From Isoetes taiwanensis (taxonomy: Eukaryota; Streptophyta; Lycopodiopsida; Isoetales; Isoetaceae): a DNA stretch of 64,000 nt. The stretch is from the NCBI GenBank assembly GCA_021234155.1, contig JAJEKV010000055.1:2843090-2907089 (forward strand). The letters run 5' to 3'. The translations under genes and the position numbers were made by a program. Below the pieces are notes generated by a model. The model ran no database searches and was not told the DNA's origin. It saw nothing but the letters and a program-made list of their open reading frames with translations. Below, one piece after another: positions 10,386 through 60,234 of this stretch (within the stretch, counting starts at the first letter, position 1; each line of letters starts with the position of its first letter).

Positions 10386-10412
10386 GGGTCCAAAAATGCT
10401 AGACCCTAGCAA
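10386..10412 (+). repeat. T1 left terminal inverted repeat
   Basis: It reads GGGTCCAAAAATGCTAGACC and continues CTAGCAA. It matches the right end in 25 of 27 positions, the differences being at positions 5 and 6. Within it, TGCTAG and CTAGCA form a small palindrome around ACC. The flanking GTTT is the left copy of the target duplication. Confidence 0.9.
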
Positions 10413-10672
10413 TTTAGCATGTCGTGGACATAGGTGCTGAATTTGTGCTGGAGAATTTCATGCCCATCACCCGTTACCCTTCACCACCCTTCATTGTTTT
10501 TTCTCCCTGAACCATTTGCAGCGGGAAAGCGAAAGCAAGAATGATCTAGAGCGGTTTGGAGCTCCTGGTTTGGAAATTTTTGCAGCCATGTCATCAATCC
10601 AAGGGGCTTCGGTTGCATTCAATGGGGAAATTTTGGGATGCATGGCCATATTCTTTTTGAGTTTAGTTTTGA

Positions 10673-13600
10673 TTACAAGGCAAAGGAGAGCAATGGATTG
10701 GGCACGATCTTTCTCTCGATTACGTGGCTAGAACCGGTTCAGCATATAATTTTAGTGGCTTGTTCTCCAATCTTCACCATTACGAAGAGCTAACTGCAGA
10801 ATTTAGTGGTGTTTGCTCCAATTTGGCACAATCGATTCTTCATGATGCAACCAATTCTAACCTTAGCCGTAACCCTAGACATTCTGATTACGAAGTGGTT
10901 GAAGAAAATAATGGTGTTTTTGGTGGTGAACCTGCTCAAAATGATGGTCTATTCAATGAAACTGTCAATTGCAATAAGAATTGCAATTGTGATGCTGAAA
11001 GGAAGCGGCTTCAAGCCGAAAAGAAGCGGATTTGGAGACAAAAGAATAGAGATATTGCACATGCTAACAAAGAGAATCATTCACCAGCCAGGGTAAGCAG
11101 TCGAAGAAAGCAACAATTGACCAAGAAACTAGCTGATTCTGTCAAGAAAGCAGTGGAAGAAATATGTGGAGGCCTCCATCCTGCAGACAAGGCCGAGGTA
11201 TTCTCTAATGTTGCTAGAAAACTCAATCTTGTTGATGAAAATGCTATTACTGATTACAAAACAGTAAAAAAAGTTGTGGAAAATTTGAAGAACTCGTTTG
11301 AATCACACAAATTTGCAAGGAAGACTGATGTGTTGAGAGCTAGATCCGCTGCTATGGTTTACCTTGTAGATCCTAACATCAATTGTTCAGCAATGTCTAG
11401 AACTTTTAACTTGAGTAGAAGCATTGTAAGTACGGCAAGAAATAGAAGAGTCTTCGCTGAACAAGGTGAAGGACCGTGGTCTATGTTTACAAGAAGAGTT
11501 AGGAGTGATAGATTCTCAGATGAGATTAGGAAAGTAGTTGTAGATTATTGGACTGATAATACCAGGGTTTCACCCAACAAGAAGGATGTCTTGAAAATAA
11601 GGATTGCACGTAAGCAGAAGGTGCTTCATCCTTTGCATTTCTTGGAAGAGACTCAGGTAATATCTCATTGTTTTAGATTGTAATTATTTTGTTAGCACTT
11701 TGTGAATTAGTGATCATTGTATTTTTTTCTTATGCAGGTGGCTTTCTTTGAGCGTTTCAAGAGAGACCATGCTGAGCTTAATATCTCGTTGACAGCATTT
11801 GAAGCTTTGAAACCAGAATTTGTGAGGAAGATAAAAGATCGAGAGACATGTTGTTGTGTTCATCACATGAAAACCGATTACATACGGTTAGCAATCAACA
11901 AAATGAGGAATGATTCTAGGATTCATGGTGCAGATTGCACATGCAATTGTGTTGTATGTGGCCCCGGGACAAGTTGTTTAGCTAAGAGTAGTACTTACAT
12001 GTCTACTAGTGAGTTGTGGAGGTCTCTAACTTGTCCTAAGGCTGAAAGTGAGGAATGGTACAAGCATGAATGCCTGCTACTCCAATGTAAGAAGTGTGGC
12101 CCTTCAAAACTCCCTGTTTGTCCAAAAGAGAAGAAACAGCAATACATGATTGATTGGAAGACATTTGATCAGGTTCCTTCATAATCCCTAACTTTCTAAT
12201 TAATTCCTTAGATGCTCTCTTTAATGTTACATGCTTATTTTATCTTCTTTCTAATTGCAGGTTGTTGACCATGTTGAACAATATGATCAGGTACAATGCC
12301 AGATTTTGTAATTTGTATTGATTAATTTGTATGTACAGTCTTGATCTTCAAATAATAGAATTCTTACTGCATGTTAGTTAGTGACAGAACTAGCATGCAT
12401 TTTTTGGGCTGCCTGATAGTTTGAACAGGTCTGATTTTAGAGCTGGATGTGCATATGGGTCTGATATACGTTTGTCCATGTTGTATCCCAATCCTTGAAT
12501 TGACAGCTGAATTTTTTTGCATGCTATCTTAAATGTAGAATGCTTATGTTGTTTACTGTCTTACTGCAGGCTCATGACCAAGTTCAACAGTATGATGATA
12601 AGAGGGCCTCAAAAAATAAGAAGAAACCAGTGGTCAAACTTGCATACAAGAGTACTAGCACTGCAGTTGTGCTGCAGCAGGCTGAACTAGTTTTGAAAGA
12701 CTTCATACCTCATAACTATGAGGCGAGATGGCAAGCACAACAATTCAAGAAATGTTTGGCCACATTTCCCGAAGGCTCAATAGTCTCAGTGATTGACTTC
12801 ACGAACTACACGCTCAAGATTCAACAGAGATTGAGCTTGCATTGGAGGAATGACCAATGCACCATTCAGTCCACATCACCTCTGGACATGCTCCTAGAGA
12901 TGATGCTAGTCCTTTGAAGGAATCGAAAAGAAGGATAATAAAAAAAGAAACACATTTTTATATTAGTGATGATCGAGAACATGATGTGTTGTTTGTGCAA
13001 CATTGTCTAGATAAGCATGCTAAATTTCTCAAAAATGAAGGTGCACAAGTAAACAAGCATATCATTTGTCCTGATGGCTGCTCGGTCGGTTCAAAGGCGC
13101 AAGACAATTCTTATATCTTGGCGGGTCTTTTCAAGCAACCTAGGTTCCAATTGAGTGGAATTATTTTGCTTCGTATCATGGAAAAGGTTTGACACATAAA
13201 ATTTTTATGCATTTCTGGTTATGGCACAGCCCATGGTCATTTCATTGTATTTTTCTTTTGCAGGAGAACATGATGGAGCAGGAGCAGTGATAAAGAGGGC
13301 AATGACATTTGAAATGCTCAAAAGGGATTCTGTACCATTCTTGAAATGCTCATGATCTTTGTGGTCTTTTTGCATCAACACTTTAGTAATTGCCAACATC
13401 TTGAGAAGAAGTCTACATTTAGGTTTGTTAACTCACTAAGCTCCTATATATGATAATAAGTATCATATTCTGAAAGCAGTTGAGCATTTGCTACTGCAGA
13501 TATTTTTGGGAAATACAATTGGGCGAGGTAGATAGGAGTGAGAGATTTGACTGTGCAACATTGAAAGGATCGAGCAAGTTTCATGCCATTCGTCTGGTCC

Positions 13601-13875
13601 AAAGATTGGACCCAACTCAAGTTGCGCACATGAATTTTTCTTGCTTCTGTCATGCTTGTTGCAAGGGTAAGTATAGTAGCTGCATCAACAAGTCTAGAAT
13701 TGGAACATGGCAATACTCGGAGCTTAATCCTGGTGAACTAGATCTGACAGAATTGGTGGATGGTCCAGTCTTTGAAGGTGATGCAGAGTGGAAGTCTGAC
13801 ATTATCGATGTTGGTGATAATTTTGCTGTTGTGGCTGTCACGTTCTTACAAATTGTATCATCTGTATACATTTGA
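10673..13875 (+). pseudogene. T1 transposase gene, multi-exon, frame-broken
   Basis: Exons read from conserved protein blocks and GT..AG sites are about 10,673-11,656, 11,738-12,172, 12,261-12,290, 12,570-about 13,186, 13,264 onward, and about 13,494-13,875. The N-terminal part is basic (RKRLQAEKKRIWRQKNRD), followed by an HTH-like block (NINCSAMSRTFNLSRSIVST) and GPWSMFTRR. The second exon is a Cys-rich region: ETCCCVHH, CTCNCVVCGPGTSC, CKKCGPSKLPVC. The core has HNYEARWQAQQFKKC and VIDF (first Asp), FYISDDREHD, CPDGCS (second Asp), and WNYFASYHGKGEHDGAGA across an intron (third acidic residue, E or D). The C-terminus has FWEIQLGEVDRSER and SCFCHACCKG. Frame slips occur near 12,860 and 13,330-13,390. 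The start codon is uncertain: the ORF opens at 10,673 and the first start-like codon is GTG at 10,724. T2 carries a diverged homologue with the same block order. Confidence 0.82.
12261..12599 (+). other. duplicated micro-exon in the T1 transposase
   Basis: A 30-base exon (12,261-12,290, VVDHVEQYDQ), bounded by TTGCAG and GTACAA, is followed after a 279-base intron by an exon whose first ten codons read AHDQVQQYDD (12,570-12,599). The two nucleotide segments are clearly related, so the exon start has been duplicated. T2 shows no visible second copy. Confidence 0.6.
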
Positions 13876-13923
13876 GCAAAACTATAGTCTGATACAATAA
13901 ATCAAATGGCCCTATCAGAATAG

Positions 13924-14205
13924 TTACTTACTTATTTTGCCAAGGGGAGAATTAGTAGGAGGCAAGTGAACATAATTACTCTGACTTGGCATCGTGGTCG
14001 GATCCGCAAATGTAAAGATTTTGCGAGAATTTCAGAAATAGAATCACAAAGAGAAAAAGAACACTTTACTTACTTATTTTGCCAAGGGGAGAATTAGTTG
14101 GAGGCAAGTGAACATAATTACTCTGACTTGGCATCTGTGTCAGATCTGCAACAGTTTAGAGAATTTCAGAAATACATCACAAAGAGAAAAAGAACACTTT
14201 ACATT
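13924..14205. repeat. 142-bp tandem duplication in T1
   Basis: The segment beginning TTACTTACTTATTTTGCCAA at 13,924 recurs at 14,066 with a constant offset of 142 bases. Scattered substitutions separate the copies. It lies between the ends of the two convergent T1 genes and would lengthen the transposase 3' region. Confidence 0.85.
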
Positions 14206-14284
14206 TCTCTAACAAAGATAGCAAGTCTACCTTTGTGTTCTGATTCAAGGCTGTTCTTCAATCTTTTACTACACTCGACTTTTA

Positions 14285-15513
14285 GTGGTTGCTACTGTAC
14301 GTGGATCTGAATCTTTTGGTCCTCTCCCTTTAGGAATCATATTCCTCTCTAAAGTTGCACTGTTTGCACTCTCTTCAACATGTTTTACCTGGCTATCTTC
14401 CTCATCTTCCATGCAACTGTCATCATCACTCCCTCCACCACTTTCATGGCAATACAAGCCTAGTTCTTGTAACAAAGCACTAGGAATAAGCATCTTGCAT
14501 GCATCAACCATGCATTGACGGCTATGCGCTACAGTATGAAAGCAACAAACATGGTAAGTGTGATTGCATGATAAACTAACAAAAAATTGATAATCTTGTC
14601 CAAGGCCACCCACAAGCTTCACAACTATTTTGCATGCCTACTGGGCATCTTATAATTGCTCATGGTTGGTGTGAGCATTTTTCCCCTTTTATGTAGTGCT
14701 GCAAACCCGGAATATGTTTGCTCTTACAACTCCAAAAACATAAAAGATCACTGATTTCTTGCAATTTATCTTTCAGAAAGTCAATCTCAGTCTTTATTGC
14801 CAGATTGTTATCACCACCAAGATGTTCACGTACCTTTCGCATGGCATCAAAGATGCACCTCTCCTCCATCTTTAATGTATTGATTGCAATAGCAAAATCA
14901 CCATCACCAGCAAAGGTGGCTTCTAAGTCCAAGTAATCTTTCTTCTTCTCAGCTGCCATAGCAGCTAAGGACTCTAACACTTTGTCAGAACTGGCCAAAC
15001 TGCCTTCAATTCGCAGCAGTTCTTGCTCCTTCTCACGTAATGTCTGCTCAATCTCATTTTTTTCATTAAGAAGACGCTTCATTTCACAACTAATGGTGGT
15101 AATGTTCCCCTCAAAAGAGTCCACTGTTGGACCTCGTCTCCGTTTATTGATATCATTGGAGCACTTTAGGGACTCTGCTGCAAATTCTGCCCAATCTACC
15201 TTGTAAGCATTTGGAGCAGCCTGGGCACGGACGGTATGAGACCATGCAAATGCTCGGGCAAACAATGTTCTAACTTCTGAATTCTTAAGGCCTCTCTGGT
15301 ACACTCGAAAGATGAGATCATGCAATTCGTCTTCAAATTGTGGCTGGATTTGAGAAACATGAAGTTTACCACCACGAAGATGGGACTTCCATACCATTTC
15401 AAAATCTTGTGGACTGACATCCTTTTTCTTGATCGTCCGAGCTTGGCGACCAGTGTTGGATAAACCCCTAAGGGTGTGGAATTCCTCCTTGTTATTGGCA
15501 AAATGTTCAAACT
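14285..15513 (-). pseudogene. T1 accessory gene: coiled-coil protein with RING-like motif
   Basis: The minus-strand exon begins near 15,513 after a TATTAG acceptor and reads RGLSNTGRQARTIKKKDVS. A conserved block follows (WKSHLRGGKLHVSQIQPQF, FARAFAWSHTVRAQ, YKVDWAEFAAES). The equivalent T2 block is WREEINSRHSIKISLVQP, IAYAFAWENCISAQ, HKVNWAAAGAQ. Next is a long heptad-rich coiled coil (about 15,100-14,750, e.g. LLNEKNEIEQTLREKEQELL). After a frame break come SCEACG and then, in another frame, VSLSCNHTYHVCC. Together these give C-x2-C..L-x-C-x-H-x-Y-H-x2-C, a RING-like zinc motif. The tail is acidic (GGGSDDDSCMEDEEDS). The gene runs convergent to the transposase. RING proteins often act in ubiquitin transfer or protein contacts; which applies here is unknown. 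At least one frameshift (near 14,600) breaks it. Confidence 0.75.
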
Positions 15514-15999
15514 AATAAGTATGTGTATAGAGCCGCATGCATATTAGTTTTCTTGCCAAATATGTACCTTTTCTCGTGACGTGAACATCTCACAATGTAC
15601 AAGTTATGCTTTAGTGTTGTACATGTAGCAGCCTGAAATTGCCAAATGAACAACAACAATCTACCTAGCATAATAATAATAATTATTACCTGGCTACATG
15701 AAGAAATTAAGCCTTGCTTCGAAGAATCCGTTAACCTGCTTCAACAATTGGTTGCACAAAAATCTGAGACACAAATAAGAAGGACAGTTTAATTGATAAC
15801 CAAGTTAAATACAGGGATCAAAATTTAATCCAAACATAGGTTTTAAAGCATGCAAATTGTAGATGACACAGTAACATTTACATTGCTTAGTTCTAGAAAT
15901 GCTGGGATTTTTCAGAAAATAATCTATTATGTGCAGATAAGTTCACTTTACCTAGAATGCCGAGATAACATCAATTTTAGCCTAAAATCATGGCCTGTG

Positions 16000-16080
16000 A
16001 AAAAACCATGCCAGGAACCAGATGCTTGAACCCGAATTCAAAAAAACCATGCCAGGAACCAGATGCTTGAACCTGAATGC
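16000..16080. repeat. 41-bp tandem duplication near the T1 right end
   Basis: AAAACCATGCCAGGAACCAG followed by ATGCTTGAACC occurs twice, 41 bases apart, with one or two differences. It lies about 240 bases inside the right terminal repeat, where subterminal transposase sites would be expected. Confidence 0.8.
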
Positions 16081-16294
16081 AGATTATGAAAGAATAGCAA
16101 AAATGAAACCGACTACATCTTACCTCGAGAGCTGCCTCAAGAAATCCAGCCTCTTCGAAATAGGTTCTCCCGCTCTCGAGCCTTCATGCCATTCTGTCCC
16201 TTCAAAAAAAAAAAGGGGGAGCCCTTCCGCCCGTCAACGAGGTCGAGACAAACACAAAAAAAAAAGTGCTAAAAAGTGCTACAATTTCGTTTTT

Positions 16295-16321
16295 TTGCTA
16301 GGGTCTAGCATTTTTTCACCC
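16295..16321 (-). repeat. T1 right terminal inverted repeat
   Basis: The reverse complement begins GGGTGAAAAAATGCTAGACC and continues CTAGCAA, matching the left end. GTTT at 16,322-16,325 duplicates 10,382-10,385. Just inside lie AAAAGTGCT direct repeats (about 16,261-16,280). Confidence 0.9.
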
Positions 16322-17178
16322 GTTTGCAAGAACTCCTTATCAAAATGCTGCAACACCATCTGCTGCCACTACATCTTATGGTCCATCATCTTCTTTTAAC
16401 ATTGTGCCACCACCTTATGGTCTGTTTTCCTCTACAAATACACCACTCAGGACAGAGGAGGTCACCCCTAGAGTAGAATTCTCATCAGAAGATGAAGACA
16501 TCAACCAAGGGCAATGAGATTACATGTCCTCTAGCCAATCTTCCAAAAAATTCAAGGTGGATTTTAGCTGAGAGCATGCTCTTCTGTTAAGAAGAAGAAA
16601 CTTTATGAACGAACATAAAATGAGGAAACTTCTAAGAACTAAATGCTACTCATTGGGTTGTATTAACAGATTCAACATGGCTAAACTTCGTGCAGTTAGA
16701 GACAATTACAGTTCCATGACATTGGCAGACCAGAATGCCTAGTTGGCTTATCATGTAAGCCCAGATCGCCATATCTTCTTGCACTATATTAACTGTGAAC
16801 AAGTCTGCCAGAAACGCTTCATGGTTGTCCACTATTTAGGGTCCACTAGAATGTCTCGAATACACAAAAGATTGGATAAACATCCAGCAATTGAAGATTA
16901 TTATGGTCCAAGAAAGGTTGTAACAATGCACGCCCTAGCTGCTGTGTCATTGGATGGAGAAAATATTTTAGAGAAACATGTGAAATTTTGCCTAATAGCA
17001 ACATATATCATTTGACGGACAACATTACAAAAAAGATATCTTCCAAGAATACAAAGAGACATGTGTTCAGTCTTAGCACATCTCTTACTCACACTTCACT
17101 AGACTGTGGAAAAGTGAATCCGGTCTTGTGAAAATTCCCAGGAGATATAGAATGTCTGTTTGCTCAAGGTGTGCAGAA

Positions 17179-19740
17179 TTAATTTAATTTAATTTAATTG
17201 TCTAGCTCATTAAGGGCCTTGAGAGGCCAAAGAGCCTGTGAACTAACATTTACAACTTTAATAGCAGAGAGCAGTGGGCATCCACCGCACTCATGTATGA
17301 ACCCAGTAATAGAGGTGGTTGTTCTAACAATGAGAAGAAATCCGGATGCTGGATACTATATCTGTCTCTTATATCCATATATGCAGAGCACTCTATGAAA
17401 ACATGTTGTTCATCTTCTATGGAGTTTCCCGCACAAACCTTGCACACCCAATCTGTCTCTGGAATATGAAACCAACGGCCCGTCTCTATGGCTAAGCGAT
17501 GTGAACTCAATCTATAACGAGCAATGATTTTCATCTGCCACTTTGGAATATCAGAAGTTGAGTATTGTTGACTTCCATATATGATTCACCTGTGTTTTAT
17601 ATTGGAGCATTCTTTATAGAAGGGCCACTGCTGCTTTTCTAACAATTCTCGCGCTTCGGTCTTGTCTTTTGGCCAATTTAGATCTGAAATTCCCCACCTA
17701 TTTGCCCAAGTGAGGAGTTCCTTCATCCAGCCAGATTGTTCTGAGGACAACAATGCTTGATGAGATACACAATCAAATGTTTGCTCTCTCACTCTGTTCA
17801 CAAAGTTAATGGCCTGGAATAATGCCTCAATCTCCAGTGGAAATAGGCCTGTCTCCGCCAACATCATTGCATAAGGTATCTGAGCCTTTATGCCTAGTTC
17901 CTCCCTTATAAATTTTTTTTGCACAGATTCCACATGTTGCCACATTCAGGAAGAAGTACCTGGTCCCCAGATAGGAGTGCCATACATCTTAAAAAGCATC
18001 TTCTTTAGCCTCCATTCTGTGAGGGAAGCTTTATTGCATTTAGAAAGCATGTTGTACAGTGCTGCCTTCCAGATACTCTATGCCTGATACAATTCTTCCA
18101 TTTATAGTTTGACAAAAAGTCAAGCCCCAGATACTTATAGGTATCTACACATTCTATCACACGCCCCTGGTATGTAAAAAGTGGTCGCTCCCTGGTGCCT
18201 ACAATCATAATCTTAGATTTATCCACATTTACCGTCATTTGTTTTGCTGTGCAAAATGCTTCAAGATTCTTCAGATGATCTTGCAGTGCACTCTTCTTGT
18301 TCGCTACTAATACAACATCATCTGCGTAAAGAAGTAATTGTATAAGATAAGAACCAACTCTCAAACCTGCCAGTGATCTTTCATTGAGCCAATACTCCAG
18401 TTCGTCTATGAAAATCCCAAATAGAGTTGGAGATAACGGGCACCCCTGCCTTACCCCAATGGTATTCGTGATGACTGTGTCTATTTCCCATGAGAGCTTC
18501 ACTAAAACCTCTGCATAAAGTTGAGATATGGCTCCTCTGATCTCAGATGGGACCCCTATGTCAGCCATTCTGTCACTTAATTTGTTTCTCGGAACGGTGT
18601 CAAATGCTTTCGCGAAATCAATGAAAGCCAAATACAGTGAAGCACCAGGGGATTTAGCCTTTTCCATGAGCACTCTGAGGGTGAGTGTGTGATCCAGCGT
18701 GCTATGCTCTTTCCTGAAGCCTGCTTGGAAGGGAGACCGTTTGCCTACATTTTCTGCCCAGGTAGTCAATTTCATCCTAAGATTTTAGAGAAAATACTTC
18801 CAATTAATAGTTCTATAATTAGAAGCTACTTTTCTGTCATCTGCCTTGAAGATTGGCTGTACATGATTTACCTTCCATTCCATTGGCATCCCTGTCTTGA
18901 TGCACTGGTTAAGGAGTTTAATGAGCACCTGCAAAGTTCTATTACCACCCCATTTGAGTAACTCAACGCATAACACATATATGTCATGGGCTTTGTTGTT
19001 TGCCATGTCTGCAAGTACGTCTTTTACTTCCTCCTCCATAAATAGATCTGCATCTGGATTTAGGATTGGCATCCCTTCTGCTTCACTTTTTTCATAGATA
19101 TCATGAATCGTTTTTAGCAAGGCATCTTGATTTAGATCTACAGTTTCAAATTTACATTTAAATGCTTTCCAGAATGTTCTTGGCTCCTGTTTGAACTTAT
19201 CAATCATATATGCATGTCTTTGCTTTAGGTAGCAGCATTTTTTGTTTCTCAGAAGTTTCTTATACCAAGCTAGCTTGCAGATATTTCTTGGCAGACTATC
19301 TCTCGCTTGTTGGCACTCCTTATCCCACCAACTGTTGCAAGGTTTCCCCTGTCTGAATCTTTTAGACAGCCCAAATACATTCCGCGCAGTTTGTAACAGA
19401 AGTTCAACAAAATTTGAGGCATCTGCGTCCACGTTATTCGACCATGAGAAGTTTGCAAGCAACCTTTCTATATGCTGATGATATTCATATTTCAGCTTGA
19501 AATTAATTTTCAGTTTTGGATTGAAGCAGACTTGGCATGTCTCTGGCATTGTTTGTAGTTTGAATACCACATGAAGAGGCGCATGGTCTGATTCAGGCAT
19601 TTTTTCGCCCACAAAGAAATCATGAATATATTCGATGTCCCTAGCCAACAAATAATTAAAGGGTAAAAAAGAAACTGCAAAGACAGAGGTCGAAAGAAAT
19701 AAGTTAAAGTTCTTCATTCTCACACTTGCTTCACAGTTTG
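17179..19740 (-). mobile_element. LINE L-B: 5'-truncated non-LTR retrotransposon inside the DUF7869 gene
   Basis: Read on the minus strand, the element ends with AGGCTCTTTGGCCTCTCAAG, a short spacer and a (TTAAA)n tail, which is the TTTAATTTAATT run at 17,179-17,199. Its 5' limit falls inside the endonuclease domain near 19,730, so the insertion is truncated. It lies antisense within the transposase gene. A CAGAA near both junctions is a possible short target duplication, but this is not convincing. Confidence 0.85.
17250..19735 (-). pseudogene. L-B ORF2 relic: end of endonuclease, reverse transcriptase, C-terminal Cys/His motif
   Basis: In coding order: the endonuclease end (IEYIHDFFVGEKMPESDHAP), the linker (SWWDKECQQARDSLPR), FWKAFKCKFE, MANNKAHDIYVLCVELLKWG, then FRKEHSTLDHTLTLRVLME, LAFIDFAKAFDTVPR, RQGCPLSPTLFGIFIDELE and the catalytic LLLYADDVVLVA. 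The C-terminus has GRWFHIPETDWVCKVC and EDEQHVFIEC, the same zinc-type motif as L-A. Frame breaks lie near 18,780, between 18,005 and 17,945, and between 17,586 and 17,534. The protein is close enough to L-A ORF2 to place both copies in one family, and it preserves the TGG codon that is mutated to a stop in L-A. Confidence 0.9.
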
Positions 19741-21616: not shown

Positions 21617-22125
21617 TGCAAGGAAAAGTATTACTTTGACATAGTCATTTTCCTCTTTGCACAAAAAAAAAAAAAATAGTGAAACGTGCTTATTTTATGT
21701 ATTGAATATATTTTTTTTAGCACGTTTGCACAAACGGTGGAGACTTTGGAGCGATTTGAAGGCATCCACGTTGCAGACAGCTGGGATTATTGTGCACGTG
21801 GAAAGCCTTATAGTCGTTAGATTTGATTTAAGGTAGAGAAAAATGATGGAAATTCCAACGTGTCCATGGGGAGCGTAGCGTTGGAAGTTATGTCCGGGCT
21901 TTCAGAATTCGATTTGGGATTACGGCTTTACTGGCAAGTTCTAACCTTTGAGGGATTTTTGGGATTACGGCATTACTGGAATTGGAATTGGCATTACGGC
22001 CAATTGAATTGTAATTTTAATTATATACCTGGATTACTAGTTGCAAGGAAAAGTATTACTTTGACATAGTCATTTTCCTCTTTGCACAAAAAAAAAAAAT
22101 AGTGAAACGTGCTTATTTTATGTAT
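21617..22125. repeat. pair of about 95-bp direct repeats 418 bp apart
   Basis: AGTTGCAAGGAAAAGTATTA through a poly(A) run and GTGAAACGTGCTTATTTTAT occurs at about 21,617-21,710 and again at about 22,033-22,125, with almost no differences. Between the copies lie several GGGATTACGGC-like motifs (21,915-22,000). The last 25 bases of the unit also occur in the repeat family at 29.2-30.2 kb. The pair looks like a recent segmental tandem duplication downstream of the DUF7869 gene. Confidence 0.8.
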
Positions 22126-22319
22126 TGATTATATATATTTGTTCCCCTTTTTTTTATTAATAACAACATATTCAATTGTTTTGCGAGTATAGTTTAGAAT
22201 AGAATAGAATAGAATAGAATAGAATTATTGTCCCTTGTGCCCTAAGGCCCCTCGATTGGTGTAGCATGGGTGAGCTCCCAAAAAAGGGCGCTACTAGCAC
22301 ATCACGCTGATATATTGTA

Positions 22320-49346: not shown

Positions 49347-49349
49347 TTA

Positions 49350-50460: not shown

Positions 50461-50552
50461 TGGAATGTTTATTCATATAGATATGACGGAATCTTATGGC
50501 GAGGTCTATCGTAAAGATAAAAGGATGGACACGGAAGTTGTATGGTTTTTCC

Positions 50553-50605
50553 AGTTGCGAACGATTTTTAACGTCCATGAAGACCAATTGGCCATGGGAA
50601 TTAGC
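50553..50605 (-). mobile_element. short LINE 3' end
   Basis: The minus strand reads CCCATGGCCAATTGGTCTTC, ATGGACGTTAAAAATCG. It matches the ends at 37,980 and 61,960. No microsatellite tail is visible, so the tail may be lost or the match may be a captured fragment. Confidence 0.5.
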
Positions 50606-52265
50606 TTTAGGTATTATTGCTAGCAAGTTGAATGTTTATATATGGCCTTGGTTTTTGGAGCCCAGGAGAAAGTTTCATGAGAAAGGACCATCGTGGTGAT
50701 TTTGTATAGCTAGCTTAATCTACCATTTTTTTTAAACCCAATATCAAGCACCCTTGTACTATGGCATATTTAGAATAGTTCACAAGAAGTGCATCACTGC
50801 AGGATATGAAATTTTCATATAAATACAAATGCAAATTTGAGGCAAGTATCTTAACTTTTTATTTTTTCATCTTATTGTCTTGACATATAAATGATAAGTT
50901 TGAATACCCCCCTCCCCTCCCCCAAAAAAAAAATAAAAAAAAAAATAAACAAACAAACAAAGACCTCCCGTTTTGAAGGACGTTAGACTTTATTAATAAC
51001 ACTCCAGAAATAGTACATGATACAATGTAGAGACATGATTAGAAATCATGTGGATAAATAGATCCAACTAAGTAGAATTGAATTGAATGGGATTTATTGT
51101 CCACACAAAGGTAATTCCACGAAGCAAGATTCAAATTCGTAGAGCAGCCCAACTAAGCGTGGCAACATAATTTAAGCCATGCTAATTTCTTCTCATAACA
51201 AAGGGAAGAAGAATATGCACATATTCAAAAGAGATAAAATTAACCATATTGATGTTCCATGTTCATAGAATCATTAACAACAACTTCATGACACTCTAGT
51301 ATCTCGATGTGATATGGTGCTCGGGGGAGTATTCTTACATGGAACAATCTTTATTGGATATGATCAAATAAAAAAACCATCCAATCCATTGTGTCTAAAT
51401 CTTGATATTATCAAAGAAAAAGTTAAAGACAAACCTTGGCATCCATAGAATCTTTATTTAAAAGCTGGTGTTACCTATAAATAGAAGGATGCCTTTGAGA
51501 ATTGGACGATTTGACCTTGTTGGAAAGATCTAGATGTCTAGTTTACGGATTGGGTTTATTTGTCCATAGACTCCTCATGGTCTGAGATTTATATCAAGAG
51601 ATGTGCATAGGGGTCCAATTCAACTGCACATCTAGTTCTGCCTCTTTCTATGTTTGATCAAGAGCCTAATCTTACCTTGTAGTACTTTGCCTAGCTTCTT
51701 GCTTGATCGTATGAATAAAAGGAGTTCATGTAACACCGGTGGTTGGTGACTAGAAAGAGCAGTCTTGATTTAGTTATATCTTTTATAGTTGGTCCAATTG
51801 GGTGGTAATCAAATACCACGTGATGTTTTACTTTCTAACAAATTGATGTCACAAAGTCAAATAGAGGGACATCCACTATAACAATAATAGCAGATACTAA
51901 AGCTACAAAAGGAATTAATGCAGCTTGAGGAGCTGAACTATTCTTGTGCAACCTTCTTCATGCACGGAGACGACCCTACTTTTGATAATAAGCAATGCCC
52001 TAAAGATGAAAATATTGCTCCTCCTTGAGAGGGTCTGGTGATACAATAAAAGGGTGAGATAAAGTAGAAGAAGGTATTACTGCAATAGATATGTAAAGAA
52101 GAGTCATTGATTGATGAAGAGGCAATTGAAGCAGACAATATGTGACAAGGCATATGAACAATTCGAGAGGTAGAGAGAATTGGTAGAAACCCCCCTCCCC
52201 CCAAAAAAAGGGCTTCCGAGGGAAAAACTTTAGCAATAATAAGCTTGCTAATAAACTATGTAACT
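50606..52265. other. no gene recognised
   Basis: AT-rich DNA with a C/A-rich low-complexity stretch near 50,905-50,960. GAATTGAATTGAATGGGATT followed by TATTGTCCACAC at about 51,067-51,098 resembles a LINE 3' end with a TTCAA-type tail on the minus strand. Confidence 0.4.
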
Positions 52266-52922
52266 TTACATGTCAATGTGTGGATGTAGGACATAATGGA
52301 GTTTGCATGTTGAGAACCATAAGATGATAATGCCATTACTGTAGGCGCCTGCAAGAGCACGTACAGCGGCTGAGTAGGTGTAATCAAATTGACATACCAT
52401 GCTCAGATAGTTGCAAGCGCTAGGCAAATCTAAAGATTTGGCACTCGTCTTCAATGGTTTCCATTTGGCAATATTGGCATACCCTATATCCATGCTCCTC
52501 AGGGGCCCATCTGCCTGTTTCAATTTTGAGATGGTGTGCATCAGTGTGAATTGACACAATTGTTCTATATCTATTCATAGGCAAATGTGATAAGAGGTAC
52601 GATGTAGGACATAATGGAGTTTGCATGTTGAGAACCATAATATGGTAATGCCATTACTGTAGGCGCATGCAAGAGCACGTACATCGGCTGAGTAGGTGTA
52701 ATCAAATTGACATATCATGCTCAGATAGTTGCAAACGCTAGGCAAATCTAAAGATTTGGCACTCCTCTTCAATGGTTTCCATTTGGTAATATTGACATAC
52801 CCTATATCCATGCTCCTCAGGGGCCCATCTGCCTGTTTTAATTTTGAGATGGTGTGCATCAGTGTGAATTGACACAATTGTTCTCTATCTATTCATAGGC
52901 AAATGTGATAACAGGTACTGCT
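52266..52922 (-). pseudogene. LINE L-E, 3' part of ORF2 (left of T2), internally duplicated
   Basis: The minus strand reads RYRTIVSIHTDAHHLKIETG, RW..EHGYRVCQYC and ETIEDE. These are the R-x-R..SSH.L.IE.GRW and C-x2-C..EDE motifs that end ORF2 in L-A and L-B. The fragment continues on the other side of T2 at 60,239-61,075. A 320-bp tandem duplication (52,282-52,921) repeats this segment. No intact frame remains. Confidence 0.7.
52282..52921. repeat. 320-bp tandem duplication within L-E
   Basis: GATGTAGGACATAATGGAGT at 52,282 recurs at 52,602, and the similarity continues to about 52,921. Only scattered substitutions separate the copies (e.g. AAGATGATAATG against AATATGGTAATG). The second copy ends at the T2 insertion point. 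Confidence 0.9.
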
Positions 52923-52952
52923 GGGTGTAAATTCTATACTGGTGATCAAAAA
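52923..52952 (+). repeat. T2 left terminal inverted repeat
   Basis: Thirty bases starting GGGTGTAAATTCTATACTGG and ending GATCAAAAA are identical to the reverse complement of 60,205-60,234. AGCAC motifs follow on the inside at both ends. Confidence 0.95.
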
Positions 52953-53027
52953 AACGCGACAGCACCCAGCACCTAAAGCACTTGGATCCCGTCAGCCTTG
53001 TGTCACGCAATTAATGCTGGCAGTTCC

Positions 53028-53132
53028 CGCGCCATAACCGTACGCCATAGCCATAAGCCATAGCTTTTAGTCGAACTTTCTCGCGCCATAGCCATAGCTT
53101 TTAGTCTGGGAATTTCTCGCGCCATAGCCATA
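53028..53132. repeat. subterminal GCCATAGCCATAGCTTTTAG repeats in T2
   Basis: CGCGCCATAGCCATA and AGCCATAGCTTTTAGTC phrases recur four to five times between the left end and the accessory gene start. They could be transposase binding sites or promoter elements. Confidence 0.75.
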
Positions 53133-53143
53133 CCGAAAGCCAA

Positions 53144-55235
53144 ATGGAAAGCATAAGAATGGCGAGCGTGGAAGATTTTGTGGAAATGCATGGATTGTCG
53201 GATGATGGACTAATTCCGGCTCTAAAAATGAAATATTTGGAGAAAAAAATCACCAAAGAAGATTGGCTATCAGTTTGGAGAGAGGAGATAAATTCCAGAC
53301 ACAGTATAAAAATCTCGCTGGTACAGCCACATCTGAAAGAACAATTACAAACATTGATAAAGAAGCTTTATCAGAGTGAGGGATTATGCAATAATGAGGT
53401 CAGAAAACAGATAGCCTATGCTTTTGCATGGGAAAATTGCATATCTGCACAAAAAAATCCTGAAAAGCACAAGGTAAATTGGGCTGCTGCTGGAGCTCAA
53501 ATTATGAAATACAGGAGGTGTAGGAAGCCTGAATCATTGGAACCAAAAAATACAGAGAAGAAGACGGTAGAAGCTCAAGAGGAAAAGAAGTTGGCAGTGG
53601 AATCTTTTATTTTGAGCACAAACATTGTACAGAATATAGAACTGATCGAGAATGAGATCACCAGAATTTCTAGTGAGAGAGAAGCTTGTGCATTGGAGTT
53701 GAATGACATCCTTGTCACATTGGCAGCAGAGGATCTCTCAAACCAGGCTTTAAGTGGCAATGTGGCAGAAGCAAACAATAATATTGAGCAAATGAAAAAA
53801 GAATTAGAACTCAAAAAATCTTTGCAGGTAACTCCAGAGTTAGAAAAAGACACTGCTGAGCTTGAAACAAGTATTATGCTTGAGACCTATGCAGCAAAAA
53901 AAATGGCAAGTTACAGGAAGGTCAATCCAAACACAGCATCAAGAAGGGATGAATTGCAAGGTGAACTTCACATGAAGGATGCTAACCTCTCAATACTGAG
54001 ATCAAACCTCAAAAACTTGGAAGAACTGAAAGGTATGAAATTTTCACCAATTAGAGTCAATGCAGTTAGTAGAGACTTACCTGTGCTATTTGAGGACACT
54101 TGTGCTGCATGTGGATTAGCATTCTCCAGCAATTACAGGTTATCAGTAAAACTAAAATGTGATCATGAGTATCATTTAATGTGCACAGCTTTGTTGGCTA
54201 AAGGTAAGGGTGAAAGCATGCTACGGTGTACCACTTTTGGAACCCTCAAAAGTACCTACACTGGGTACTTTTAAAATTGGTACTTTCTGTTTTTTCTTTC
54301 CATTAAAATCAATCCAAAATTTTTGAATTGAAGGTCAATAACATGTCAATCTATTGTATTAAAGGATAACAATACTATTAGAGACTAAAATAAATGAATC
54401 AACTTCAAAACTTATTGTTTATTGAGACATTTATGCAAGTTCCAAGTACCCAGTGCTGGGTACTTTTCTGGGTAGTTTTGCACTCCCTAAAAAGAACTTT
54501 AGATGGTACACCCTAGCATGCTTTTACCCGTAAATGCATTGTTTGCACTTCATCTATCAGTTCTGCTTTATTTTTAGAGCTTGGTATGACAGTGCCTGTG
54601 GACGAGACAGTGCTTGAAAATACAGGATCACCTTCCATTGTACATGATAGGATATCAACTTTTGGAAATCTTGCTCTGCTACCCTCAACTTCAAGATCTC
54701 CTTATAAGATTGGAGCAAATAATGTTATACTAACAGATGATGAGGGTGAAGTCACTTTCTAAAAAACCTTGGGAAGGTTGTTGAGGGGAAAGGAAATTCA
54801 GAGTCACATCAAGAGAGTGACACAGAGATAGAAGTGGTGAAGGAACATTCGAAGAAAAGAAAATTTTCACCCAAATCAAAAGTGCAGGTTCCAAAGAAAC
54901 AGAAAAGCAAAGATAAAGCAAGCAGGAAAGGAGAAGCACCTAAGAGGACTTATCCATTCAGAAGCAAGAAGAATCTGAAAGATGCATTAGAGGCTGATGA
55001 GAATACAAGTGTAGAGTTGCAGCAAACAACAGATGAAGCACTTGTAGCACTTAATAATGTTGCCACTTGGGAAAGCATCATCACGACAGGTCAATCTGGC
55101 CGCCATCGCTTCTTTGTTGAAGTAGAAGATCAGGGTCCAACTCCAAAAGAAGGTATTCTATTTCAAGCTATACTTGATGCTCTGAATGACAAAAATGATT
55201 CTGTCTCAATCAAGAGTCTGTTACATGAAAATTAG
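53144..55235 (+). pseudogene. T2 accessory gene: coiled-coil, RING-like motif, basic tail
   Basis: The first exon (53,144, or ATG at 53,159, to about 54,202) encodes the conserved N-terminal block MHGLSDDGLIPALKMKYL, WREEINSRHSIKISLVQP, IAYAFAWENC and HKVNWAAAGAQ. A long coiled coil follows (about residues 125-300). It ends with DTCAACGLAFSSNYRLSVKL, KCDHEYHLMC: C-x2-C..L-x-C-x-H-x-Y-H-x2-C, RING-like but incomplete in this exon. A donor (AAAG/GTAAGG) follows, then an intron holding a 292-bp MITE. The next segment (about 54,571-54,762) reads LGMTVPVDETV. After a slip in an A6 run near 54,765 it continues to 55,235 with an acidic then basic stretch (KEHSKKRKFSPKSK) and TYPFRSKKNLKDALEAD. The basic run is a good nuclear signal. 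The T1 homologue shares the first block and the zinc motif. The function is unknown; the conserved pairing suggests a role in transposition. Confidence 0.72.
54223..54514. mobile_element. 292-bp MITE in the T2 accessory-gene intron
   Basis: The ends ACGGTGTACCA and (reverse complement of the right end) AGGGTGTACCA are inverted. AGCATGCT lies on both sides (54,215-54,222 and 54,515-54,522), an 8-bp duplication typical of hAT-like elements. The interior holds AAAGTACC..GGGTACTTTT palindromes. It post-dates T2. Confidence 0.85.
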
Positions 55236-55402
55236 CTGGCCTTGATTCCATGCAGGGACAATTGGAGATAATTCCATATCAATGAAAGGCAGTGTTGTAG
55301 CCATTAGAAGGTATTTGAGTGTTCATTGTAGCCATTTGAGTGTTATTAATAAAAAAAATTTAAATTGCTTTGCAATGGTTGTTTGAATTTGTTTTGTTCT
55401 AA

Positions 55403-55735
55403 TGTAGGTCTGCACGAAATTCAAACAAATTTGATAATGAAAAAGAGAAATCAAACATCATCAATAAAGTGAAGAAAAGGAGAGCAGAAAAGGAAAGTGA
55501 AACTATAGTTCAACCAACTATAGTTGAGCCAAATATAGTTGAGACATTTGAAACAAGTGTTGAGCCAGCTTTTGTTCCACAAAAGATAGTTTCAGAGGCA
55601 AATATAGTACATCCAACAATGGTTCAACATTGTGTTGATACAGTTGCCAAGACATTTGAAACAAGTGTTGAGCCAGCAAGTTTGCCAGCAAGTGTTGAGC
55701 CAAAGAAGGTTCAACAAGTAAAAGCAAAGACATAA
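55403..55735 (+). pseudogene. low-complexity exon in T2 with ETSVEPA repeats
   Basis: Following a TCTAATGTAG acceptor, the frame gives a Lys/Glu-rich start (KKRRAEKESE). Imperfect repeats follow: TIVQPTIVEPNIVE, then VETFETSVEPA and KTFETSVEPA, ending KKVQQVKAKT. It lies just upstream of the HAD relic on the same strand. It may be the N-terminal region of that protein or a further exon of the accessory gene. No family is recognised. Confidence 0.4.
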
Positions 55736-55752
55736 GCGAGATATCATGGTGA

Positions 55753-56441
55753 GTAGAAAGCTATTGATTATGGACCTCAATGGTGTTTTTGGTTAAAACA
55801 TATTCAAAGTCTGAAAACTTGAAATATCCGCCCACACATTATAGAGTATACAAAAACAAGATAGTTTTATTCAGGCCCGTTCTTACGAATTTTTAAATAA
55901 GGTAAGTGTTTACTATGACTTGGCTATATGGTCATCTATGACTGGTTTCAATACAAAGGAGGTGTTACAGAAGTTGTGTCCATTACTTATACACAGGTTT
56001 GTTTTTATTTGGGGACAAGAGTTTTGTGACAAAATGCCTTTCACGTTACCTGGACATGTTGACAAACCAGTGTTCATGAAACCTTTGGAAAAGGTGTACT
56101 GCCAGTTTCCTCAATACACTGAAAGATGTATTTTGGTTGATGACTCAGTTTATAAAACATTCTTGTCTCCACCTTATACAACTGTTATTGCAGCAAGCAT
56201 GAGGATTGAAGAATTTAAGTCAAGTTCAAGTTTGCTAGTGGATTCCATTTTTCCATTGTTGTATCAACTTGCAATGGATGATAACTGGAAGACAATATTG
56301 AAGGGAATACAACTTGTGGATTTCTTTGATACGGAGGCCGTGGAAATTCTTGAGAGGTTGGATGCAGCAATGTTAACAGTTCCTCAGCAGGTTTCTTTTG
56401 ATCTCTATTACTCTACATTTGTGAAGTGGTCGACCGAATAA
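55753..56441 (+). pseudogene. FCP1-like HAD phosphatase relic carried by T2
   Basis: The HAD motifs are in order. Motif I is KLLIMDLNGVFG near 55,755-55,793 (D-L-N-G, as in a plant subgroup of FCP1/NIF-like proteins, where the second Asp of DxDx is Asn). Next come YRVYKNKIVLFRPVL, then YYDLAIWSSMTGFNTKEVL (motif II region, Ser/Thr after IWSS). Motif III is CILVDDSVYKTFLSPPYTTV with the double Asp. The C-terminal part resembles the helical end of these proteins (DDNWKTILKGIQLVDFF). Frame changes after DLNGVFG and near 55,895 break it, unless unrecognised introns are present. FCP1-like enzymes dephosphorylate Ser/Thr, classically on the RNA polymerase II tail; activity of the DLNG subgroup is doubtful. 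T1 has no counterpart, so T2 probably captured a host sequence. Confidence 0.7.
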
Positions 56442-57374
56442 AGGCGGATATAGCAAGTTCATCAACAATTCTGCCTTGCAACACCTGAAACAAGTTGTAA
56501 ATAGTTAGGTGAAACACATTTTAAATTGTCAACTGACAGCCAGCCATTTTTGTTGTTCATGTAGGCTGGCCAATTTTGTATACATTTTGATATATCCTTT
56601 GGATCTGGATATACTTATTAAGTTATCAATGAATATTTTTATCTTCTTTGCACAATTGATGATTAGAAACCATTATCAACTTGAAGGCGGTCGCTCATTA
56701 TTTGTTGGCATGTCTGCTCATCCATACTATACAGGTTGTCTTTCACCAAAGTCATGTCAAATTTGCAAATCCTAACGAGGTGGCTGTACACTGTGGCCAG
56801 TGGTTTGTCTAAAAGAAGTTGAAAACTTAATTCTCCTTCCAATTGTTTGTAATAGTAGCCGAAAAGTATGACCTCACCAATTCCAAAAACATTGCCCCAC
56901 CATCTTCATAATCATCTAGTAATGTGTTCTTTGTCTCAATACATTTCGGACATAAAAGTCTACACCCTCAAGATTGCCTTCTTTCTCGCATTCACTTTGC
57001 AAAATTGTCCCCTACTTCTACATTAGAGCTGATCGGATCATGGTCACCATCATCTTCACTATCGGGTCTCCTCGCCTCTTGACACAACCTCATTGTCGAA
57101 TTTCCTGCCGGGTTACGCTCTTTTGGGACCAACTCATTTGTCTCCCAACCTCCTATACTGAGATTTAGTGCTCTCACAGAGTCCCATTTCCCTTGCTGGC
57201 AAGACATGCAAAAACATGACAAAGGTCTATGTGCAAGCTTCAAAGGATTTTCTCTATCAAAAGGCCTGATGCAATGAATTTTAGTTGTCCCTTTGAGGGT
57301 CTGAGCATCATACCTTTCTGATCTATCTATACTATGAGGGTCAATTTCCCAAAAGTACCTGCAGGCAACAATTA

Positions 57375-57605
57375 ATCAAGTGCTGTAAGTGCTTAACTGC
57401 TGTAAGTGCTGTAAGTGTTGTACAGGTAAATAAACATTCCAATAACAAACAAAAAAAAAGTTCAAAATGTTATATTTGTACATAAATGGCCTTCAAAATG
57501 TATAAAACTAGTAAAGTATCACCAAACATGCATAAAAATCATGAACAATAATTAGACTAAAATACAGGTCTAAGTGCTTCAAGTGCTTCAAGTGCTACAA
57601 GTCAA
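57375..57605. repeat. AAGTGCTGTA / AAGTGCTTC decamer-like repeats in a T2 intron
   Basis: AAGTGCTGTAAGTGCT-type phrases cluster at 57,383-57,425 and AAGTGCTTCAAGTGCTTCAA at 57,573-57,600. They flank an AT-rich intron of the transposase gene. AGTGC also features in the T2 subterminal region. Confidence 0.65.
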
Positions 57606-58593
57606 GATTACTTACATTGTATATATCGGAATCGATGAGTCAAGTTGGTAAAGAATTCATTTAGAAATCGAACGACATCTGCAGCACACTGGAGTTTTCT
57701 CCCATTATACTTCAGTTGTTCCTTTGTGAGAAATCTTTTTACCACTGCTCCTTGGCCATCATGCTCACCTTTTCCATGCGAGCTGGCAAAGAAATTCCAA
57801 ATAATCTCCTTCCCAAGATCTCTGTACCATCTACCCAAGAAAGAGAATGGTCTTGCAGACTTAAATTGAGATGAACAACCATCCTGACCATACATAATGC
57901 TTGGAATATTGAATACCATTTAACTCCAACCAAGTGGCATGTTTTAAGAGGCAATCTTTGTACAAATTCAAAGTCATGAGACTTCTCATCCGAAATATAG
58001 AAGTGACACTCTTTTATAATTTCTCTGTTATCATCTTTTTGCTTCATATCTTTTCTTTTCTTCTTGATGTCATTGCCATCCACATTTGTTTCCTTCCAAA
58101 CCCGTAAGTGATATGAACTAAAATGGATACCGGGTCATTGTGCCAATGACATGATTAAGCTTCCTCGCGAACTTTGAAACCATAGTTTTACGCAAAGTCA
58201 ATTACGTAAAACTATTGTGTCTTCTCCAAAACTTGCCAAACATTGTCTGAATTGTTTTGCTTGCCAATGAGCCTTGTAGTTGTGTGGCACAAATGCTGCC
58301 ATTGTTTTTCTTGCATGTTCCTGAAATTCAAAAGGGGTACCAGTCTTGTAGGCCAATCTTGTAACTTTAGTTGGTTTCTTCTTAGGGTTTCTCTTAGAAA
58401 CAGCTTCTTGCTGCAAGCAGTAGAATCAACAAATTAGTATAAATGACGTGATCCTTCTAACACAAACTCAACACTAACTTTTTCAAATACTTTCCAATCC
58501 ACCAGGTGTTCTAATGATTTACTTGTTTCCCTTGGACACTTTGGAATCCTATATAAAGTGGAATAGAGAAAGTACTGTAAGAGGATATTGAAG

Positions 58594-58693
58594 CTAGATA
58601 TCATAGAAATGAAAAGTTAAACAATATATATGACATATGTTATCTAGATATCATAGAAATGAAAAGTTAAACAATATATATGAGCTATGTTAA
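58594..58693. repeat. 50-bp tandem duplication in a T2 transposase intron
   Basis: CTAGATATCATAGAAATGAA and the following bases start at 58,594 and again at 58,644, offset 50, nearly identical. It lies in the intron between the Cys-rich exon and the next exon. Confidence 0.9.
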
Positions 58694-60204
58694 TAACTTA
58701 CCTCTTGAGACCACATTTCTTGCAGTGTCATCAAACATGCATGTTTGTGCCATTCATCTGCTTCTACTTTGGGGCATACCACATTTCTCCAATACTCACT
58801 TGTAGATTTGAAAATATTGTCCTTAGCATTGCATGTTGGACCTGGACCACATACCCTGCATTCGCATTTGCAATCTTTGTGCACACCATAAGGATCAGAC
58901 CTCATGTTATTAATTGCCTGCATGACAAAATCAAGGTGCATGTGGTACTGACAGCAGCAAGTCTCCCTTTCTTGCAATCTCCTAATATAGCTTGGTTTAA
59001 GCTTCTCAAAGGTTTGCTGGCATATATTGATCTCAGGATACTCTTTCCTGAATTGAAGATAAAACTGCAACTGATCATAACACAGATTCAGCAACAATAT
59101 CATGCAAAATACAGAAAAAAAAAAGGCAGAATGTGCTTACTTGTGTCACCTCCAGCAAATGAATAGGATGGTCAATCTTTTCACCTGTTTCACTAACATG
59201 TTTTCTCACATGTTTTTTATATGGTGAGATCCTAGTATTCTCATCCCAAAAATTCTTTATCTTACCTACTGCTTCATCTGAAAGTGCATCAGATCTTTTT
59301 CTCCTCTGAAACATTGACCAGGGACCTGCTTCAAATTCTGCATACACACGTCTCTGAAATGCTCTTGCTACAGTTCTTCTTGGAATAGATAGAAGCCTTG
59401 CTATTGCTGATTGATTCACTCCCTTTGTTGAAGATGCAGCCATTTGCAGTGTACTCCTTTTTGCTTGAAGAACATCAGTATTTCTATCATATTTTTGAGC
59501 TTGAAAAGTCTCTTTCACATTCAAAATTAAATCCCTCATAAGGGCATTTTCTTTTGGATCTGCTACATCAACATCGAGTGGAAGATGTTTAATCTTCTTG
59601 AAGAATCTCGATGCTAACTTCCCTTTGTCCACATTTGAGGCAAAAGTATTTGTAATTTCATTGAAATAATCTTCCAAATTTTTCGACAATTCCTGTAATC
59701 TTCTTTCACTCAAAACACCACAATCTTTGGTATTGGAAGGAGGATTGTTTTCCTTCTCTCTCTGTCTCTTCCTTTCTCGGGATTTTCTTCTATTTTCAGC
59801 TTGAATTTGCAAGAAAATCCTTCTTCTAGTTGAATCGATGCTTTCAGGGGAGCTTTCCATTGAAATTCACGAGACAGATTTCACGACTCGAATTATAATT
59901 CCAAATTGAAAATTCAATTGAAACAATGCAAAATTTGTTCGAATTGTATGAATTGGTATTGCAATTCTCTAATTGCAATTCCGAATTCTGATTTCTCCCG
60001 CCAACCACTAAAGGAAACTCCAACCATCCTCCCCGCCAACGGAGTTCCCGCGTCTTTGGAGATCCTAGTCACTGATCCCTGCCATTCCGGAATTGCATAT
60101 ACTATTCTTGGTGCATGCCAATTCTGTTTTAATTCGGTTGGACGTCACACGACTAAGGAGGTACTAAGCGTTTTCAGCACATAAAGCACATGTCCGGACA
60201 GTGC

Positions 60205-60234
60205 TTTTTGATCACCAGTATAGAATTTACACCC
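60205..60234 (-). repeat. T2 right terminal inverted repeat
   Basis: The reverse complement of the left end over 30 bases, without mismatch. TGCT at 60,235-60,238 is the right copy of the target duplication. Confidence 0.95.

Follow-up and report, generated by a model that had tools for sequence, protein, structure and literature searches.

Two large insertions in a stretch of 64,000 nucleotides of the Isoetes taiwanensis genome (contig JAJEKV010000055.1, positions 2,843,090 to 2,907,089 of the forward strand; hereafter the window) raise the question of whether a plant DNA transposon can combine its transposase with a coiled-coil/RING-like protein as a conserved pair of genes. The initial annotation, made from the sequence alone, had proposed such a pair for the elements T1 and T2. 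The data presented here show that both are GGGT-ended DNA transposons with 4-base-pair (bp) target duplications and a conserved two-gene plan. The inverted ends, the exact duplications (GTTT for T1, TGCT for T2) and the two convergent genes per element were all found as annotated (Table 1). A blind scan for 20-bp inverted ends of the form GGG...CCC with up to five mismatches and an exact 4-bp duplication likewise recovered the ends of T1 (two mismatches) and T2 (no mismatch).

The relatedness claimed for the two copies is borne out by their proteins. The Cys-rich exon of the transposase (hereafter the Cys exon) aligns between T1 and T2 at 48% over 115 columns (E 3e-45), and for the second genes the alignment covers 175 columns at 30% (E 3e-18). 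An identity of just 30% in the coiled-coil gene is what unrelated repeats that resemble each other by chance might offer, but the probability of this reading is negligible: two separate protein alignments, the shared order of the genes, the matching ends, the equal length of the duplication and numerous intermediate relatives stand against it. The two alignments together with the co-divergence of the proteins described below rule it out. Both elements are best read as decayed members of a large group of cut-and-paste DNA transposons, and in both the genes are broken across open reading frames (ORFs) or frames. In T1, the RING segment is out of frame with the coiled-coil ORF, and one transposase ORF continues in an overlapping ORF in a different frame. 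In T2, the RING domain is split in two, with the final Cys pair in a separate ORF. The T2 segment between the RING halves has inverted-repeat-like ends, AGCATGCTA...TAGCATGCT, and is possibly a small nested transposon.

To place these copies among their relatives, the genome assembly (1,658,258,908 bases, or 1.66 Gb, in 1110 contigs) was searched; at most the best 150 protein or 40 DNA candidates were scored per search, so that all counts are lower bounds. With the first 215 bases of T1, the best 40 of 48 candidate matches were scored, and 36 of the 40 begin at query base 1. For the Cys exon, the best 150 of 7058 (T1) and of 6264 (T2) loose candidates were taken, these totals being rough. The second gene yielded at least 139 matches with the T1 query and at least 112 with the T2 query, of which 128 and 99 remained after dropping second fragments of one locus. 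For a third gene described below, 145 of the 151 matches counted, which were not all listed, were used, and removal of four short fragments reduced the T2 left-end matches from 44 to 40. Loci L001-L015 were chosen for having both genes listed nearby and L016-L020 for having no coiled-coil match listed within 10 kb, while L087-L094 are a random draw (fixed seed) from 136 unpaired coiled-coil matches. When the first 20 loci were scanned for GGG...CCC inverted ends with an exact 4-bp duplication, nine contained a single candidate and the remaining 11 contained none; under the same criteria two of the eight random loci were positive.

The duplication length was also determined without presupposing a duplication, by pairing ends through DNA homology. 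An exact 4-bp duplication flanks 27 of these 33 end pairs (29 when one mismatch is allowed), compared with a mean of 1.45 and a maximum of 6 for shuffled ends, and a 5-bp duplication flanks none of the 33. The duplications are A/T-rich across 39 distinct sites and are preceded by a pyrimidine in 32 and followed by a purine in 30 of these 39; a symmetric-pair test for a palindromic target site was not significant (p 0.08-0.97). One T1-type copy with paired ends measures about 271 bp and has an exact duplication, indicating that short non-autonomous copies exist. Two peculiar arrangements occur within the 33 pairs. L025/L026 and L027/L028 have common flanks, and the identical flanks of these two T1-type copies look as if an insertion-bearing genomic segment had been duplicated. 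L021-L024 represent two adjoining T1-type copies with swapped duplications, the outer 4 bp agreeing (AGCT) and the inner 4 bp disagreeing, a pattern suggestive of tandem rearrangement.

Do the relatives retain both genes? Co-occurrence of the pair between GGGT ends was found in this genome well beyond T1 and T2. Among the matches listed, the coiled-coil gene is present in 35 of 41 elements with paired ends (16 of 20 T1-type and 19 of 21 T2-type, the 41 including T1 and T2 themselves), so that most full-length relatives have it, where the initial annotation had allowed that most might lack it. The 20 T1-type elements, a set in which one right end is used twice (C1046), comprise 11 with both genes, five with the coiled-coil gene only, two with the transposase only and two with neither; the two transposase-only elements have one right end in common. 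Again among the matches listed, there is a coiled-coil match no more than 10 kb away from 74 of the 300 transposase matches; 73 of these 74 pairs are on opposite strands, and 71 are convergent. Within 30 kb, 92 of 300 transposase matches are paired, as opposed to 4 of 300 when the coiled-coil positions are shifted by 500 kb both ways. Moreover, the protein distances of the two genes correlate over 18 loci (r = 0.84), a value reached in none of 2000 shuffles (maximum 0.42); in this set the two L007 genes stem from two neighbouring elements.

The loci that appeared to lack a partner were inspected individually. Four of the eight random coiled-coil matches without a listed transposase within 30 kb do have a transposase in the 10 kb examined. 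In the remaining four, a GGGT family-type end lies just upstream of the gene at L089, L090 and L094 and is absent at L093. Among the loci chosen for the lack of a coiled-coil match, L016 has a RING part at the edge of the locus, L017 has a partial coiled-coil gene, and the partner of the L019 transposase is listed about 20 kb away. Taken together, these results support the gene pairing well beyond the two copies in the window.

Some T1-type copies are mosaics in which the transposase and coiled-coil halves have been exchanged. Across its left 1.95 kb, L008 matches L006 at 93.5-95.2% in three blocks, and across its right 2.5 kb it matches T1 at 88.8-90.8%; past position 6050, L006 has no DNA match of at least 60 bp to T1 or L008. 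The synonymous divergence (dS) agrees with these blocks: for the coiled-coil gene it is 0.08 between T1 and L008 and saturated between L008 and L006; for the Cys exon, the corresponding values are 0.61 and 0.14. The divergent gene pair at L007 is best explained as two neighbouring elements placed head to tail.

We therefore asked what the second gene encodes. An alignment of 14 members displays an N-terminal domain with invariant residues (e.g., within AFAW and NWA), a variable coiled coil and a C3H2C3 domain, followed in several longer members by an acidic stretch and a basic tail. RING-H2 domains have the spacing C-x2-C-x(9-39)-C-x(1-3)-H-x(2-3)-H-x2-C-x(4-48)-C-x2-C. Of the 29 sequences searched, comprising 28 loci and the window, nine fit this general pattern, namely eight T2-type loci and L092, and six further T1-type loci have three to five residues within the last Cys pair. 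Counting both spacing variants, 15 of the 29 sequences contain the full ligand pattern and none does when reversed; neither window copy matches it unbroken. In line with this, a profile of the second protein matches the RING domains of RLIM (E 8.2e-4), RNF13 (1.4e-3) and RNF38 (5.6e-3) in the PDB, so that both ligand spacing and profile support the RING-like call. None of the PDB matches listed spans the N-terminal domain. In Pfam, zf-RING_2 was matched by 5 of the 14 members (best E 0.0095) and zf-rbx1 by two (best E 0.007); judging by the E-values, no member is above the RING cut-offs (27.3 and 31 bits), and the best E for any Pfam family among the 14 is 0.0057. Structure prediction, which had been proposed for the Cys/His domain, was run on the second-gene ORF of T2, aligned with two ORFs of T1. 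It was informative for the coil, where it predicts helices at about residues 150-309 with a predicted local distance difference test (pLDDT) score of mostly 80-94; it gave no confident model of the rest, most of which is below 50.

The C3H2C3 ligands, conserved in both clades, also allow for a transposon-encoded RING ubiquitin ligase (E3) that eliminates or inhibits a host silencing factor and acts outside the cutting complex. The best solved relatives of the profile are E3 RINGs, the protein has a gene of its own and, in several subfamilies, a basic tail, and the ratio of nonsynonymous to synonymous divergence (dN/dS) of the coiled-coil gene is 0.18 in the only diverged pair whose dS was usable; as this dS is 2.2, the ratio is rough. 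RING E3s often contact the ubiquitin-conjugating enzyme (E2) via a Trp and a Pro, yet such contact residues are not seen at the usual places in the RING alignment; moreover, the Pfam matches of single members are weak and no target is known. We regard this reading as doubtful, albeit quite possible. In six other pairs the dN/dS of the coiled-coil gene is undefined through saturation; as ORFs were taken from stop to stop, all dN/dS values include slight non-coding sequence.

The description of the family as two-gene elements stood as far as the pair is concerned, but it overlooked the mosaic halves and a third gene in T2. The latter matches the NLI-interacting-factor (NIF) domain PF03031 above the cut-off (E 8.8e-6; 25.9 bits, cut-off 21.8). 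The window copy contains stops close to its start, and its relatives at L012 and L015 match the same domain at E 3.4e-16 and 1.6e-15, respectively. Among the matches listed, the NIF-like gene lies beside the RING gene in 19 of 21 T2-type elements with paired ends. A coiled-coil gene is located within 10 kb of 66 of the 145 NIF matches, on the same strand in all 66 and always from the T2 query, and no listed T1-query coiled-coil gene is nearest to any of the 145. Against a clean split between the types, two T1-type loci, L018 and L093, likewise contain NIF-like matches; for 51 of the 145, neither gene is listed within 10 kb, which may be due in part to list length. The catalytic motif of FCP/SCP phosphatases is DxDx(T/V). 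The motif reads LLILDVNGV in L012 and L015 and LLIMDLNGV in T2, and the replacement of the second Asp by Asn renders enzyme activity of the NIF-like protein doubtful. At L014, the coiled-coil/RING ORF extends over 572 amino acids to ...IKSLI and is followed by a stop, and at L012 and L015 the NIF ORF starts after the same stop as ends the coiled-coil/RING ORF. We read the NIF-like ORF as a separate gene; a single fused coiled-coil/RING/NIF protein is disfavoured by this stop, and alternative splicing is possible.

The resemblance of this third gene to a known cellular enzyme family raises the possibility that the second gene, too, is passenger cargo: captured host sequence, kept only through the recombination and amplification of the elements, with no role in transposition. 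The location of the NIF gene near T2-type genes only (among the matches listed), the copies without one of the genes and the exchanged halves would be compatible with this. The coiled-coil gene, however, is present in both clades, co-diverges with the transposase, occurs in the large majority of elements with paired ends and has a low dN/dS in the sole usable diverged pair. As an account of the second gene, cargo is improbable, and it fits the NIF gene better than the coiled-coil gene.

The transposase is encoded by multiple exons, with a helix-turn-helix (HTH)-like N-terminal region, the Cys exon and a C-terminal exon containing the SCFC motif. The conserved motifs VIDFAENY (Asp), WSDGCSSQFK (Asp) and GEHDG (Glu/Asp) contain candidate catalytic residues, with either E or D as the third; in the L012 exon, this candidate is E60 or D62, with 38 or 40 residues between it and D21. 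The dN/dS of the Cys exon is 0.10-0.27 in six pairs with a dS of at least 0.6; three close pairs gave 0.66-0.94, and for one pair the ratio was undefined. None of the transposase exons tried has a Pfam match above the cut-off, the best being the T2 N-terminal ORF with the HTH family PF13384 (E 0.0017; 18.5 bits, cut-off 24.6). A PDB profile search with the catalytic region returned one unrelated chain at E 0.22 and nothing better. Searches of viral contigs with the Cys exon, the coiled-coil gene and the catalytic exon, of bacterial and archaeal genomes with the Cys exon and the catalytic exon, and of phages with the catalytic exon found no relatives, most of the transposase searches having used short peptide patterns of limited sensitivity.

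Which superfamily does this enzyme represent? Harbinger was rejected, since the 4-bp duplication contrasts with the 3-bp duplications (TNA/ANT) of that group, and so was Mutator, whose Mutator-like elements (MULEs) have duplications of 7-12 bp, as stated in the accessible part of PMC10741241. The 4-bp target duplication and the terminal inverted repeats are Sola-type traits, and Sola remains our best guess, as it was in the initial annotation; it fits the duplication length and is known to us by description rather than by sequence comparison. The negative searches in Pfam, the PDB and, with the limits just given, the viral, prokaryotic and phage collections would suit an unnamed superfamily with 4-bp duplications. 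This is unlikely: Sola elements, known for 4-bp duplications, are reported from moss (PMC10741241) and ferns (PMC6786969) in the accessible parts of these papers. In addition, a missing Pfam match says little about Sola, as we know of no Sola model in that database.

The element is probably Sola-like, with a putative nuclear RING-type accessory protein. In the explanation that we favour and consider likely as a whole, the two window copies are decayed members of a family with paired genes, in which a Sola-like DDD/E enzyme would act with a nuclear, self-assembling accessory factor of transposition. The second protein might be a partner of the transposase or of the end complex or, alternatively, it might target host chromatin or silencing factors as a RING adaptor or an E3; such a role would liken it to the second proteins of other two-gene plant elements. 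The T2 branch would have acquired the NIF-like gene later, and half-exchange may help to keep a working gene pair together as copies decay.

Several observations weigh against this explanation. Half-exchange implies that the gene pair is not strictly obligate; five of the 20 T1-type elements have a coiled-coil gene but no listed transposase and two show the reverse, four of the eight random coiled-coil loci have no transposase in the 10 kb examined, and L018 and L020 have no coiled-coil gene in the same interval. The Sola assignment is tentative at the level of homology. As to the second protein, the best match of any single member to a Pfam RING model has an E of 0.007, the E2-side Trp and Pro are not seen at their usual places in the RING alignment, and the structure model (mean pLDDT 53.6) is of low quality apart from the coil. 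Finally, its dN/dS is 0.40-1.03 in four close pairs, although this is expected of copies decaying after insertion.

A bolder version goes beyond the favoured explanation and strikes us as rather unlikely. It describes a deep lineage with a nuclear kit of its own, composed of a RING ubiquitin ligase present since the early splits and a branch-specific protein resembling phosphatases of the RNA polymerase C-terminal domain (CTD), which would counter silencing or license transcription, the halves being reshuffled in a modular pool. How plant DNA transposons evade silencing depends in part on their accessory proteins, and few of these, namely those of Mutator and CACTA, are well studied. The present family offers an accessory protein with an unmatched N-terminal domain and a RING, with a phosphatase-like addition in one branch. 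Furthermore, the natural half-exchanges show which parts of an element combine, and the matches suggest that an under-described transposon group is abundant in the genome of a seed-free plant.

Table 1. Features of T1 and T2 in window coordinates.
Feature	Positions	Strand	Remark
T1 target-site duplication, left (GTTT)	10,382-10,385		
T1, entire element	10,386-16,321	+	transposase on +
T1 left terminal inverted repeat (GGGT...)	10,386-10,410	+	end scan; genome matches
T1 transposase, N-terminal ORF	10,673-11,680	+	basic region, W.DNTRVSP.KK motif
T1 transposase, Cys-rich exon	11,714-12,181	+	ETCCC...VCGPG
T1 transposase, exon with HNYEARWQAQQF and candidate first Asp	12,504-12,914	+	VIDF
T1 transposase, part in other frame, damaged candidate second-Asp region	12,854-13,189	+	CPDG
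T1 transposase, C-terminal ORF	13,474-13,872	+	SCFC motif
T1 second gene, RING-like half, then tail	14,272-14,637	-	other frame
T1 second gene, conserved N-terminal domain and coiled coil	14,663-15,511	-	
T1 right terminal inverted repeat	16,297-16,321	-	
T1 target-site duplication, right (GTTT)	16,322-16,325		
T2 target-site duplication, left (TGCT)	52,919-52,922		
T2, entire element	52,923-60,234	-	transposase on -
T2 terminal inverted repeat, coiled-coil side	52,923-52,952	+	
T2 second gene, N-terminal domain, coiled coil, first six RING ligands	53,105-54,271	+	
T2 segment separating the RING halves	54,200-54,520		inverted-repeat-like ends
T2 second gene continued, last RING Cys pair (CIVC), ...LFLELGM	54,517-54,762	+	unbroken pattern in L010, L011
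T2 second gene, basic linker, end ...IKSLLHEN-stop	54,750-55,235	+	
T2 third gene, NIF-like phosphatase domain	~55,749-56,441	+	RKLLIMDLNGV...LVDDS
T2 transposase, C-terminal block	56,666-56,905	-	
T2 transposase, C-terminal exon	56,992-57,375	-	CRYFWEID, SCFC
T2 transposase, catalytic exon, candidate acidic residues 2 and 3	57,611-57,919	-	DGCSSQFK, HGKGEHDG
T2 transposase, exon preceding candidate first Asp	58,201-58,425	-	
T2 transposase, Cys-rich exon	58,693-59,136	-	
T2 transposase, N-terminal ORF	59,078-59,866	-	HTH-like match (PF13384)
T2 terminal inverted repeat, transposase side	60,205-60,234	-	
T2 target-site duplication, right (TGCT)	60,235-60,238		

Outside the two elements, the window contains at 52,266-52,892, next to T2, two highly similar adjoining minus-strand ORFs of 102 and 105 amino acids, an apparent tandem duplication. 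Read by eye, the minus strand at about 17,200-19,700 looks like a decayed reverse transcriptase of the long interspersed nuclear element (LINE) type. Elsewhere in the genome, the 10-kb locus L093 contains a dispersed 24-bp palindrome, TTTCTCGACTCGCGAGTCGAGAAA; of the eight repeat copies listed there, seven are exact.

How do these elements compare with known systems? The RING of the second protein resembles those of RLIM, RNF13 and RNF38 in the order and spacing of its C3H2C3 ligands, with profile E-values of 8e-4 to 2e-2. It differs from them in being transposon-encoded and fused to a coiled coil and an unmatched N-terminal domain, in showing none of the E2-contact residues in the alignment, and in the wider last Cys pair of most T1-type loci. 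The NIF-like protein shares an above-cut-off domain match and the DDS motif with the FCP1-SCP phosphatases (PF03031) and departs from them in the Asn that stands for the second Asp and in being carried by a transposon. The second protein of Harbinger elements is Myb-like. According to the accessible part of PMC12477816, the autonomous Harbinger elements of the brown alga Ectocarpus have two tail-to-tail genes, as do T1 and T2, and 3-bp duplications, whereas T1 and T2 combine 4-bp duplications with a coiled-coil/RING protein in place of a Myb-like one.

Sola elements are described as having 4-bp duplications, terminal inverted repeats, a DDD transposase and mostly a length of 2-9 kb (PMC10741241, PMC9033089), and they are reported from the moss Physcomitrella (PMC10741241, PMC9033089) and from the fern Azolla (PMC6786969). 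By description, not by sequence, Sola1, Sola2 and Sola3 are likened to the present family through the duplication length and the terminal inverted repeats; the accessible parts of these three papers mention no coiled-coil/RING or NIF gene. Likewise, none of the open-licence titles and abstract openings surveyed pointed to a coiled-coil/RING gene in a Sola element or in a plant element, although such an element may well be in print. The accessible part of PMC12477816 also describes Sola1-1_Ec32 from Ectocarpus, a 21.5-kb element with an accessory gene for a 1104-amino-acid protein comprising ParB-like and DNA methyltransferase parts. As in T1 and T2, this accessory gene is opposite in strand to the transposase; in contrast, the T1/T2 family measures about 6-9 kb and encodes a coiled-coil/RING accessory protein with or without a phosphatase-like gene. 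Sola1-1_Ec32 and the Ectocarpus Harbinger elements are thus the closest published designs that we have seen, as far as the accessible part of PMC12477816 describes them.

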